64,000 nucleotides of DNA from Phytoactinopolyspora alkaliphila (GTDB taxonomy: Bacteria; Actinomycetota; Actinomycetes; Jiangellales; Jiangellaceae): the NCBI RefSeq assembly GCF_010550695.1, contig NZ_JAAGOB010000002.1, positions 248,001 through 312,000 on the forward strand, read 5' to 3'. Shown piece after piece: positions 3,811-33,957 of the stretch. The position numbers were made by a program, and so were the translations under genes. The notes below the pieces were generated by a model. It saw nothing but the letters and a program-made list of their open reading frames with translations. It did not search any database and was not told where the DNA came from. Position 1 is the first letter of the stretch, and the number at the start of each line of letters is the position of its first letter.

Positions 3811-4743
3811 GTGTCCACTTCCCGCGCCGGCGTCGTCTACGGCCTCGGAGCATACGTGCTCTGGGGCTTGTTGCCGCTCTTCTGGGCACTTCTCGATCAT
3901 GTGAGTTCGATCGAGGTGCTGGCACATCGGTTCGTCTGGTCTCTCGTCGTCGTCCTCGCCCTGCTCGCCGTCACCGGCCGGCTCTCCCGGCTTCGCCGTC
4001 TCAGCCTGCGTGCGTACGGCCTGCTCGCCGTCGCGGGTCTGGTCATCGCCGTCAACTGGGGGATGTTCATCTGGGCGGTGAGCACCGGACACGTCATCGA
4101 CGTCTCGCTCGGCTACTTCATCAATCCGCTGGTCACTGTGCTCATGGCGGTCATCGTCCTGCACGAGCGGCTGCGGCGAACCCAGTGGATCGCCGTGGGC
4201 ATCGCCGGCGTCGCGGTGGTGGTGCTGACCGTCAACTACGGACAGCCGCCGTGGATCGGGCTGACTCTGGCCCTGACCTTCAGCATTTACAGCCTGATCA
4301 AGAAGAAGGTCAGGGTTCCCGCCGTGGAGAGTGTCGCCGTGGAGACCGCGGCCGTAGTGCTTCCAGCGCTCGTCTTCGTGATCATCCTCCAGGCCAGCGG
4401 CCGGGCGACCTTCGGCGCCGTGGATGTGGGAACCGACCTGCTGCTGGTCGCAACGGGCATCGCCACCGCTGTTCCGCTCCTGCTGTTCGCCGCCGCGGCC
4501 AGCCGTGCGACGCTCACGACACTGGGTGTGGCGCAGTACCTGGCGCCAACGCTGACCTTCATCCTGGGCCTTACTGTGTTCAATGAGGTCGTTCCGCCAG
4601 TACGCTTTGTCGGCTACGGCCTGGTGTGGCTGGCGCTGGTGATCTTCACCGTCGACGCATTGCACCACCGCAGAGCGACCCTGCGCTCGGCCATCCAGGA
4701 CGACGCGGTTCTCGAATCCCTCCGCGATCCGGCCCGCACCTGA
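3811..4743 (+). CDS. rarD: RarD-type EamA-family permease
   Basis: A 310-aa integral membrane protein with about ten hydrophobic helices in two EamA halves. The N-terminal GLGAYVLWGLLPLFW and the downstream HRFVWSLVVV are characteristic of the RarD subfamily of drug/metabolite transporters. RarD was first linked to chloramphenicol sensitivity in Pseudomonas; the natural substrate here is unknown. Length is usual for the family (about 290-310). The GTG start at 3811 is supported by a -10-like hexamer 6 nt upstream, suggesting leaderless translation. It is divergent from hyuAB and convergent with the polyprenyl synthase, which ends 100 bp away. Confidence 0.88.
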   Translation: MSTSRAGVVYGLGAYVLWGLLPLFWALLDHVSSIEVLAHRFVWSLVVVLALLAVTGRLSRLRRLSLRAYGLLAVAGLVIAVNWGMFIWAVSTGHVIDVSLGYFINPLVTVLMAVIVLHERLRRTQWIAVGIAGVAVVVLTVNYGQPPWIGLTLALTFSIYSLIKKKVRVPAVESVAVETAAVVLPALVFVIILQASGRATFGAVDVGTDLLLVATGIATAVPLLLFAAAASRATLTTLGVAQYLAPTLTFILGLTVFNEVVPPVRFVGYGLVWLALVIFTVDALHHRRATLRSAIQDDAVLESLRDPART

Positions 4744-4843
4744 TGGGAAATCCTGATCCTGATCCGCAGGAGTCAGTACTCACGCCACCACCTTGCGCAC
4801 CATTGTTGTGGTCCCGCTGTGAGAACACCGAAACGCAGAACTA

Positions 4844-31663: not shown

Positions 31664-32563
31664 GTGACCAGCACACCCTTCGACCCCGATCGGTGGCGCC
31701 CTGTGGAGGGCTTCGACTTCACCGACATCACGTATCACCGCCACGTCGCCGGCGCGCACGACCAGGGAACGGTTCGGGTAGCGTTCGACCGGCCCGAGGT
31801 CCGCAACGCGTTCCGGCCACATACGGTCGACGAGCTGTACCGTGCCCTCGACCACGCCCGGATGACACCCGACGTGGGCTGCGTGCTGCTGACCGGCAAC
31901 GGACCGTCCCCGAAAGACGGCGGCTGGGCCTTCTGCTCCGGCGGTGACCAGCGGGTACGTGGGCGAGACGGATACCGGTACGCCGCATCGCCCGACGATC
32001 CGGCCCGCGCAGGCCGCCTGCACATCCTCGAAGTGCAGCGGCTGATCCGGACGATGCCGAAGGTCGTCGTCGCCGTCGTCCCCGGATGGGCGGCCGGCGG
32101 TGGCCACAGCCTGCACGTCGTGTGCGACCTCACCCTCGCCAGCGCCGAGTACGGACGGTTCAAGCAGACCGACGCCGACGTCGGGTCGTTCGACGGTGGC
32201 TACGGCTCGGCGTACCTGGCTCGCCAGGTTGGACAGAAGTTCGCCCGGGAGATCTTCTTCCTCGGGGACGAGTACTCCGCCGCCGACGCCCATCGAATGG
32301 GGATGGTCAACGCCGTGGTTCCGCACGCGGAGCTGGAGGACGTGGCGCTCGAGTGGGCTGCGCGCATCAACGGCAAGAGCCCCACCGCCCAGCGCATGCT
32401 CAAGTTCGCGTTCAATGCGATAGACGACGGCATGGTGGGGCAGCAGGTCTTCGCGGGTGAGGCGACCCGGCTGGCATATATGACGGAGGAGGCCGTCGAG
32501 GGCCGCGACGCGTTCCTCGAGAAGCGCCCGCCGGACTGGTCGCGTTTCCCCTGGTATTACTGA
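31664..32563 (+). CDS. menB: 1,4-Dihydroxy-2-naphthoyl-CoA synthase
   Basis: A 299-aa crotonase-family ring-closing enzyme of menaquinone synthesis. Motifs include TDITYHRH, RVAFDRPEVRNAFRPHTVDE, DGGWAFCSGGDQRVRG (oxyanion hole), AAGGGHSLHVVCDLTLAS, QTDADVGSFDGGYGS and the C-terminal EKRPPDWSRFPWYY. This is close to the mycobacterial MenB pattern. GTG 31664 (VTSTPFDPDRW) is chosen for its -10 spacing; GTG 31643 would add seven residues. A 100-bp palindrome begins 12 bp after the stop and separates it from menE. Confidence 0.95.
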   Translation: MTSTPFDPDRWRPVEGFDFTDITYHRHVAGAHDQGTVRVAFDRPEVRNAFRPHTVDELYRALDHARMTPDVGCVLLTGNGPSPKDGGWAFCSGGDQRVRGRDGYRYAASPDDPARAGRLHILEVQRLIRTMPKVVVAVVPGWAAGGGHSLHVVCDLTLASAEYGRFKQTDADVGSFDGGYGSAYLARQVGQKFAREIFFLGDEYSAADAHRMGMVNAVVPHAELEDVALEWAARINGKSPTAQRMLKFAFNAIDDGMVGQQVFAGEATRLAYMTEEAVEGRDAFLEKRPPDWSRFPWYY

Positions 32564-32574
32564 CTGCGCCATCT

Positions 32575-32674
32575 GCTGCTAAATGATCATGTAAACCATG
32601 TTTTCTCGTGCTTCACCAGGCCTGCAGACCTGGTATCGCACGAAAAAACATGGTTTACATGATCATTTGGCAGC
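32575..32674. terminator. 100-bp palindrome between menB and menE
   Basis: Arms 32575-32611 and 32638-32674 are 37 bp long and match at 35 positions. They are notably AT-rich (AAATGATCATGTAAACCATG) for this genome. Inside, after 4-nt bulges on both sides, CCAGG/CCTGG forms a second stem. It follows menB and precedes a candidate promoter for menE, so it probably ends or attenuates the menB transcript. Its composition suggests a dispersed repeat family. Confidence 0.7.
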
Positions 32675-32694
32675 GGGCGGTGGTGGCGGCGAAG

Positions 32695-32723
32695 GTGACG
32701 GACGGCGGGAACCTCTCTAAGCT
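32695..32723 (+). promoter_or_regulatory. Candidate promoter for menE-menA
   Basis: GTGACG (32695-32700) and TAAGCT (32718-32723) are 17 bp apart, a normal sigma-70-type spacing. The ATG of menE is 10 nt after the -10, giving a leader of only a few bases. Confidence 0.4.
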
Positions 32724-32733
32724 GGACTACGCG

Positions 32734-33957
32734 ATGCAGAGATCGACTCCCGTGACGACCACGTCTGCGACACGTTCACTCCAAGTGATCGACGTGCCGC
32801 TGACTCCCGCCGTCGTTCCCCGGCTCTTTCCCGCCGTCACCGCGGCACTGGAGGGCGGCCACGCACTGCTGCCCATTCCGACGCATCCGGAGCCGGTACG
32901 CGAGCAGCTGCTGGACGCTCTGCGTCCGGACGAACCGGCAGAGGACGACGCCGCCCTGATCGTCCCCACCTCCGGCTCCACGGGCGAACCCAAGGGAGTC
33001 CTGCTCAGCGCCGATGCGATTCAGGCATCCGCCACCGCCAGCGTGCGGCGGCTCGGCGGTCCGGGCCGCTGGCTGCTCGCCCTACCGGCCACGCACGTCG
33101 CCGGGCTCATGGTCCTGGCCCGCTCGTACGTCGCGGGCACCCAGCCGGTGGCGCTCGACCTGTCGCAGGGCTTCGATCCCGAGCTGTTCGCCGCGGCGTC
33201 GGTGCGCTTGTTCGGCTCCGGCTCTGGACGCCGCTACACCGCCTTGGTCGCGCGCCAGCTCGCCGCCCTGCTCGACGGCGGTGACGCCGCGGTCGCGGCC
33301 CTTTCCGGATACGATGCCGTCCTGGTCGGCGGTTCGGCCATCAGCTCTGAACTGCTGGACCGTGCCAGGTCAGCCGGAATCCCTGTCGTGACCACATACG
33401 GCACCACCGAGACCTGCGGCGGTTGTGTGTACGACGGCCGCCCTCTGGACGACGTCGAGCTCGCCGTCGACGACGACGGCCGCGTCCGGCTGCGTGGGCC
33501 GATGCTGGCCAGCGGATATCGGCTCCGCCCCGAATTGAGCACCGAGACGTTCGTCGACGGCTGGTACGTCACCACGGACATCGGCCACTACAAGGCCGAC
33601 GGCACCGTCGAGGTGGTCGGCCGGGTCGACGACGTCGCGGTCTCCGGCGGGGTGAACGTTCCGCTGGCCGCCGTGGATCGCGTGGTGGCGACGCACCCGG
33701 CGGTGCGCGAGGCGCTGGCCGTCGCAGTCACGGACCCGGAGTGGGGGCAACGCGTCATCGCGGCTGTCGTAGCGGAGGACACCGACCAGCCACCACGGCT
33801 CGAGTCCGTCCGCGCCCATGTGATGCGGCAGGCTCCTGCCGCATACGCTCCGAAAGATCTGGTGCAGCTGGATTCGCTGCCCACCCTGCCCAGCGGAAAG
33901 CCGGATCGCCGCGCGCTTGCCCGGCAGCTGGCTACCAACCAAAACACCGAGGTCTGA
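32734..33957 (+). CDS. menE: o-Succinylbenzoate-CoA ligase
   Basis: A 407-aa adenylate-forming enzyme activating OSB. P-loop IVPTSGSTGEPKGVLL near 93-108; ALPATHVAGLMVLARSY; the TTYGTTETCGGCVYDG core motif; GWYVTTDIGHYKADGTVEVVGRVDD hinge; and LPTLPSGKPDRRAL with the catalytic C-terminal Lys. Upstream in-frame codons to 32608 overlap the palindrome and look non-coding. ATG 32734 is preferred; GTG 32752 is an alternative. Its TGA overlaps the menA ATG (TGATG), so the two are translationally coupled. Confidence 0.92.
   Translation: MQRSTPVTTTSATRSLQVIDVPLTPAVVPRLFPAVTAALEGGHALLPIPTHPEPVREQLLDALRPDEPAEDDAALIVPTSGSTGEPKGVLLSADAIQASATASVRRLGGPGRWLLALPATHVAGLMVLARSYVAGTQPVALDLSQGFDPELFAAASVRLFGSGSGRRYTALVARQLAALLDGGDAAVAALSGYDAVLVGGSAISSELLDRARSAGIPVVTTYGTTETCGGCVYDGRPLDDVELAVDDDGRVRLRGPMLASGYRLRPELSTETFVDGWYVTTDIGHYKADGTVEVVGRVDDVAVSGGVNVPLAAVDRVVATHPAVREALAVAVTDPEWGQRVIAAVVAEDTDQPPRLESVRAHVMRQAPAAYAPKDLVQLDSLPTLPSGKPDRRALARQLATNQNTEV

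Follow-up and report, generated by a model that had tools for sequence, protein, structure and literature searches.

A dispersed palindromic repeat of Jiangellaceae between menB and menE: a putative RNA 3'-end hairpin and landing pad for insertion sequences

Introduction

What is the long palindrome that separates menB from menE in Phytoactinopolyspora alkaliphila, and did its arrival alter the men cluster? An initial annotation of the 64,000-nucleotide stretch of DNA analysed here (the window) had read it as an AT-rich, foreign or dispersed repeat that rewired the cluster. We examined it within the window, across the 5.5-Mb genome (33 contigs) in which the window sits, and in relatives. Our best reading, made from sequence, is that it belongs to a native REPIN/ERIC-like repeat that is a putative RNA 3'-end hairpin and an insertion sequence (IS) landing pad. 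We assign a probability of roughly 0.55 to the joint account of a palindromic repeat family that is native to Jiangellaceae and dispersed in their genomes, has an 86-bp core, invariant ends, a species module and a CTGCAG centre, and would act at RNA 3' ends, spread, be kept alike by conversion and harbour IS elements.

The palindrome between menB and menE

A repeat search of the window placed two arms of 50 nt each at 32575-32624 and 32625-32674, which are 88% complementary with a spacer of 0 nt. The palindrome and its position between menB and menE, gene names with which Pfam agrees, had thus been described correctly, but the arms are longer than the 37 bp first given. RNA folding of 32560-32690 yielded -83.5 kcal/mol (z = -12.5), and 0 of 200 shuffles folded as well. 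In that fold, internal loops of 3 nt (UUC/AUC) precede the inner ACCAGG/CCTGGT stem, so the CCAGG/CCTGG stem noted before is present but its 4-nt bulges are not. The claim of AT-richness in GC-rich surroundings also stands, as the repeat copies have a GC content of 0.437 versus 0.676 for the window, with a local minimum of 0.48 over the palindrome (measured over 100 nt). Within the window the arm motif occurs at this single site (expected, 0.01), and the curated Rfam covariance models gave 0 matches to the window at gathering score. The core of the repeat begins 18 bp 3' of the menB stop codon (32561-32563) and ends 66 bp 5' of the menE ATG (32734). The features of the locus are as follows.

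31664..32563, + strand: menB, naphthoate synthase (ECH_1), the gene preceding the palindrome, with 18 bp between its stop codon and the core
32575..32674, unstranded: whole palindrome, two 50-nt arms with the junction at 32624/32625
32582..32667, unstranded: 86-bp repeat core AATGATCATGTAAACCATG...CATGGTTTACATGATCATT, of this exact length in 60 of 61 genome copies
32582..32592, unstranded: left outer end AATGATCATGT, near-invariant; ISL3 lands at its edge, after C-Y-AAATGA
32593..32600, unstranded: species-specific module of the left arm, AAACCATG in the present genome
32612..32637, unstranded: centre; ACCA-G-CTGCAG-TGGT conserved, internal loops of 3 nt; in other copies the landing site of IS30-type elements
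32649..32656, unstranded: species-specific module of the right arm, complement of the left module
32657..32667, unstranded: right outer end ACATGATCATT
32718..32723, + strand: TAAGCT hexamer, 10 nt 5' of the menE ATG; motif and spacing also in relatives without the palindrome
32734..33957, + strand: menE, AMP-binding, o-succinylbenzoate-CoA ligase

A repeat family of Jiangellaceae

About 67 places in the genome match a covariance model of the repeat, and a search with a 15-base arm motif gave 67 forward and 65 reverse matches, with 0 for the reversed control. This genome-wide arm search bears out the description of a dispersed repeat. We recovered 61 distinct full copies, in 60 of which the core, AATGATC...GATCATT, is exactly 86 bp long. 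Counted in each genome with a strict pattern made of the two outer ends of the core, copies number 58 in the present genome (G000), 78 in G002, 67 in G020, 24 each in G005 and G014, and 22 in G001; other Jiangellaceae have few or none by this pattern, and the count is 0 for G004, which belongs to the same genus, and for several Jiangella.

In a BLAST-type search at class level, the core was found in 16 of 22 Jiangellaceae genomes and in 0 of 274 genomes of the class outside the family, apart from a 34-bp partial match in G048 that covers the self-complementary centre only and was taken as chance. Viral, phage and plasmid collections searched with the repeat gave no match. This spread through the family, with essential absence from the rest of the class and from those collections, gives no support to a foreign origin. 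By menE, Phytoactinopolyspora halophila (74%) is the closest of the named relatives, with Haloactinopolyspora and Jiangella next.

Other forms were seen in relatives. G008, a 1.7-Mb Jiangellaceae metagenome-assembled genome, carries many diverged copies (loci L025 and L038) whose outer end reads AATGACCACGT; they form another dialect, which the strict pattern does not detect. At ~1499-1700 of locus L046 there is a longer compound form, with the same outer ends ~205 bp apart and two inner hairpins.

The men locus in relatives

The proposed comparison with relatives in which menB and menE are adjacent was informative: the two genes are 21 bp apart in P. halophila, without the repeat, and all relatives with a readable menB-menE spacer lack the repeat there. 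The copy in this spacer is therefore most simply a gain in the present lineage. A TAARCT-N10-ATG arrangement precedes menE in G000, G001, G002, G003 and G005, with N9 in place of N10 in G004, and G001 to G005 have this element despite a spacer free of the repeat. Since the arrangement occurs in repeat-free relatives, menE probably had a start signal of its own before the repeat arrived. A sigma-70 consensus scan found no promoter; of the GTGACG/TAAGCT promoter proposed earlier, the TAAGCT hexamer exists, and the GTGACG -35 element and the promoter itself gained no support from that scan.

Other strong hairpins, unrelated to the repeat, stand 3' of menB in G001, G004, G009 and G012. Together with the shared TAARCT arrangement, they leave the idea that the repeat rewired the men cluster unsupported. 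The repeat occupies the position of a hairpin in other relatives, and it may reduce read-through from menB; the palindrome hairpin would replace the ordinary hairpins of the relatives. The G001 hairpin was also considered as the seed of a second dispersed palindrome family, which we rejected because it is not repeated and is an ordinary single hairpin.

Two further observations concern this spacer. In Jiangella asiatica (L051) and at L210, a MazE/MazF-like toxin-antitoxin pair, recognised by eye from the translation, lies between menB and menE, which suggests that the spacer is insertion-prone in Jiangellaceae. Outside Jiangellaceae, a Pseudonocardiaceae metagenome-assembled genome (L058) has a different near-perfect palindrome, CCCCGTTTTGGTTCCAGAACGGGG..., between the two genes.

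Placement at gene 3' ends

With genes called in 3-kb loci by a simple codon-usage gene finder rather than an annotation, junctions with a palindrome were 29 convergent, 25 tandem and 1 divergent, versus 9, 101 and 21 among other junctions (Fisher p = 1.6e-11). The corresponding counts in G002 were 13, 8 and 0. No copy among the ~67 lies inside a called gene away from the gene end, and of the 86 stop codons facing a copy, 80 are inside the core or at most 40 bp from it, 29 of them inside. The core edge carries stops in all three frames in both directions; in the CTAAATGATCATGTAA form, TAA, TGA and TAA all fall in a stretch of 13 nt. Most copies are flanked by C/T-rich DNA on the left and G/A-rich DNA on the right.

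The copies stand just after stop codons, as intrinsic terminators do. A terminator scan of 32400-32900 found no intrinsic terminator: no T-run follows the stem, and the flanks are G-rich. A canonical intrinsic (Rho-independent) terminator was excluded on this ground. From position and maintained pairing (see below), we infer a 3'-end RNA hairpin role, in which transcripts of the flanking genes would extend into the palindrome and form a hairpin of ~36 bp that could end the mRNA, protect its 3' end or be cut there by RNase III, in both directions. The placement at 3' ends could also come from the purging of harmful insertions.

Sequence constraint and species modules

Of the 1320 sites that the outermost 11 positions make up across 60 copies (120 arms), four are changed. 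Further in, positions 26-30 and 34-37 hardly vary, and there is free variation at positions 20-21, 23-25, 31-33, 38 and 40. The outer end is conserved as AATGATCAYGT in most of Jiangellaceae; species have in common the outer ends, a TTTTCTCGTGC block and the CTGCAG centre. A module of 8-9 bp varies by species, in both arms at once: it is AAACCATG in the present genome, TTGGTGGG in G001, GAAGTRGG in G002 and TTGGTACG in G005. Pair counting found 97.3% of cells paired and 12 pairs with two-sided changes, a score that 0 of 500 shuffles reached; the slid control somewhat favours the structure, because the pairing was derived from the same sequences, and the two-sided changes are visible by eye.

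The patchy invariance of single positions goes beyond the needs of a bare hairpin and points to sequence recognition. We also considered whether the repeat is the recognition site of a co-evolving, putative host DNA- or RNA-binding protein, active in chromosome organisation or 3'-end processing, with the module as its dialect and with sites that track its specificity. Near-invariance of the outer 11 bp over 120 arms, invariant positions interleaved further inside, the constant 86-bp length and a module that is uniform within a genome yet differs between species, in both arms and at orthologous sites, would all fit. However, G004 in the same genus and several Jiangella have zero strict copies, so the sites are not essential, and conversion alone would give the same homogeneity and is a good fit to chimeric copies. 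We regard such a protein as quite improbable. A broader version is decidedly unlikely as well: the palindromes would be conserved sites of a putative Jiangellaceae binding factor, concerned with transcript 3' ends or chromosome organisation, whose specificity changes between species; at dozens of sites and in both arms, their modules would be rewritten genome-wide, species by species, and two unrelated IS families would exploit them as safe harbours.

Shared junctions and concerted evolution

For 11 of the 61 copies, compared with 48 sampled copies from relatives, a gene-end neighbour is shared with a relative's copy, and both neighbours are shared in six. Control junctions were shared in 3 of 121 cases, about one-eighth the rate of the copies (p = 3e-4, a rough value). 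At the pair L169/L240, both neighbouring genes end inside the palindrome in both species, and the flanks are homologous at L175/L259. Mean identity among copies of the present genome is ~0.91. Orthologous copies are 0.69-0.80 identical, equal to the 0.70-0.80 of non-orthologous copies compared across species, which means either concerted evolution or repeated insertion. Chimeric copies, with a different module type in each arm, occur at L149, L225 and L276.

The simplest reading is of long-lived sites that conversion keeps alike. Ectopic conversion, turnover or both would homogenise the copies of a genome, giving each species its own module. Under the other option, species-specific elements inserted independently into the same hot-spot junctions, and the shared sites are not ancestral copies under concerted evolution. 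This would explain why two orthologues are no more similar than copies picked at random and why the distance to the stop codon differs at L012/L246 (16 versus 39) and L181/L237 (12 versus 54). It accords less well with chimeric arms, with a sharing rate, in a partial sample, ~8 times that of controls, or with the pairs L169/L240, L150/L266 and L175/L259, in which placement is almost the same and the flanks are homologous. Repeated hot-spot insertion is disfavoured by L169/L240 and L175/L259 in particular, and we consider it possible but doubtful. The spacer to the left of the L246 copy holds, at a distance of ~14 bp from it, a further partial end, CCCTAAATG, which is perhaps the footprint of an excised or decayed element.

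A landing pad for ISL3- and IS30-type elements

All assessable ends of two kinds of IS in the present genome lie in the palindrome. For ISL3-type elements, of two subtypes, 15 of 15 ends are at its outer edge, and a DDE_Tnp_ISL3 match was found at the edge of contig C23. Eight of these ends directly follow CYAAATGA and seven follow a complete copy, a pattern that fits an apparent 8-bp target duplication of CYAAATGA. ISL3 ends are at the same edge in relatives (G001 at L258, L028, G014, G020 and G021). The IS30-type elements (HTH_38) have 13 of 13 assessable ends in the palindrome centre. Among copies that they split, the arms differ and the visible IS30 ends are identical; thus, the IS30-type element came second, and for the same reason the arms were rejected as that element's own ends. 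IS elements specialised on the palindrome would gain a safe harbour outside genes. At L314 and L317 (G020 and G014), palindromes and remnants of ISL3 follow each other in turn, which looks like reuse of the pad.

IS elements lodged in the palindrome are the reason why many contigs break off ~127 bp past a copy. The repeat therefore explains contig breaks in such assemblies, and it could serve as a marker for Jiangellaceae. These contig ends are also what might suggest an assembly artefact or a chance palindrome. Given that they are accounted for by the IS elements, that independent genomes hold copies with the same repeat architecture, that no shuffle matched the fold energy and that the reversed pattern had 0 matches, we take an artefact or chance origin to be refuted, with practically no probability left to it.

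How the repeat might spread

A RAYT/Y1 transposase (PF01797) was detected in 0 of 22 Jiangellaceae genomes, with control genomes positive. No autonomous mobiliser of the repeat was found in the assembly, which is incomplete and could hold an autonomous copy in a gap. The palindrome shows no excess of direct repeats at 2-12 nt that would mark a target-site duplication, nor terminal inverted repeats in common with an autonomous IS, as MITEs have; every arm is either half of an 86-bp pair or parted from its partner by an IS30-type element, whose own ends are different. Ungapped pairing between flanks (303 versus 295 +/- 10.5 expected) is not above chance overall. Copy-specific extensions of the stem by at least 6 bp occur in 8 copies, where 0.7 would be expected, and a fold test at 12 nt gave p = 0.002, so simple insertion into a pre-existing stem has a minority of copies on its side and, against it, flank pairing at chance level overall. 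One natural empty site is present in the window, at 4743-4843, where a convergent junction is without a palindrome and its G001 orthologue (L249) has one.

The repeat would spread without a gene of its own, through some enzyme acting on it. A stricter alternative is that it is purely selfish, a non-autonomous MITE/REPIN-like element mobilised in trans by a putative transposase and with no host function; its position at 3' ends would then reflect the loss of other insertions or the targeting of C-rich/G-rich terminator-like DNA. Gain of the menB-menE copy in the present lineage only, the junction filled in G001 and empty at ~4743-4843, copy numbers from 0 to 78 among relatives and high identity within species are as such an element would have them, and C/T-rich left and G/A-rich right flanks with some extended stems look as if copies had inserted into existing stems. 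Yet 11 copies are at orthologous junctions shared by deeply diverged species, with genes ending inside the palindrome in both at L169/L240, and invariant and variable positions are interleaved. As there is also no target-site duplication and no Y1/RAYT transposase in the 22 genomes, we hold a purely selfish element to be unlikely.

Comparison with known repeats

REP sequences are short dispersed extragenic palindromes, often 3' of genes, that serve as IS targets, and REPINs combine two inverted units into a long hairpin that is mobile without a gene of its own (PMC3733652, PMC3116915). The Jiangellaceae repeat is likewise a dispersed extragenic palindrome in many copies (~67 here). GTAG repeats are known from Proteobacteria, Cyanobacteria, Chloroflexi and the PVC group, and CGTC repeats from five phyla that do not include Actinobacteria (PMC3733652). 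Unlike these, the present repeat is an 86-bp near-perfect palindrome rather than units of 20-40 bp, it has the ends CYAAATGA/TCATTTRG and no GTAG or CGTC tag, and its family of hosts has a RAYT/Y1 transposase in 0 of 22 genomes.

The ERIC/IRU, YPAL and NEMIS elements of enterobacteria and neisseriae are palindromic intergenic repeats of ~100-170 bp that are cotranscribed and form long hairpins. Compared by description rather than alignment, their sequences appear unrelated to the repeat studied here, which differs further in its species-specific modules and near-invariant ends. RU elements are treated in PMC2759123.

Complete association between IS and REP has been reported for ISPpu9 (7/7) and ISRm22 (10/10) (Tobes and Pareja 2006, PMC1525189), and IS ends fall just as reproducibly in the Jiangellaceae repeat. 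The fully associated IS elements in that report belong to the families IS3, IS110 and IS4, with no mention of ISL3 (PMC1525189), whereas here ISL3 (at the edge) and IS30 (in the centre) use different points of the same palindrome. IS30 is known to insert into nearly palindromic hot spots (PMC9333248); in the present case a repeat with many copies in the genome plays that part, and none of the assessable ends falls outside it.

The REP/RAYT system with its mobiliser is well described; for this actinobacterial family, which is without RAYT, we found no report, and the Jiangella palindromic-repeat literature, covered through open-licence papers only and hence as weak evidence, contained no description of the repeat. 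It offers a natural system for asking how dispersed short repeats stay alike within a genome, whether gene-end palindromes act as bidirectional 3'-end signals without a U-run, and how the transposases of ISL3 and IS30, which are unrelated, can come to use a single host repeat as a place to insert without harm. Taken together, these comparisons show that the Jiangellaceae repeat is like a REPIN/ERIC-type repeat and an IS-target REP in the way it works, and that it departs from REP in two features, the RAYT and the tag.
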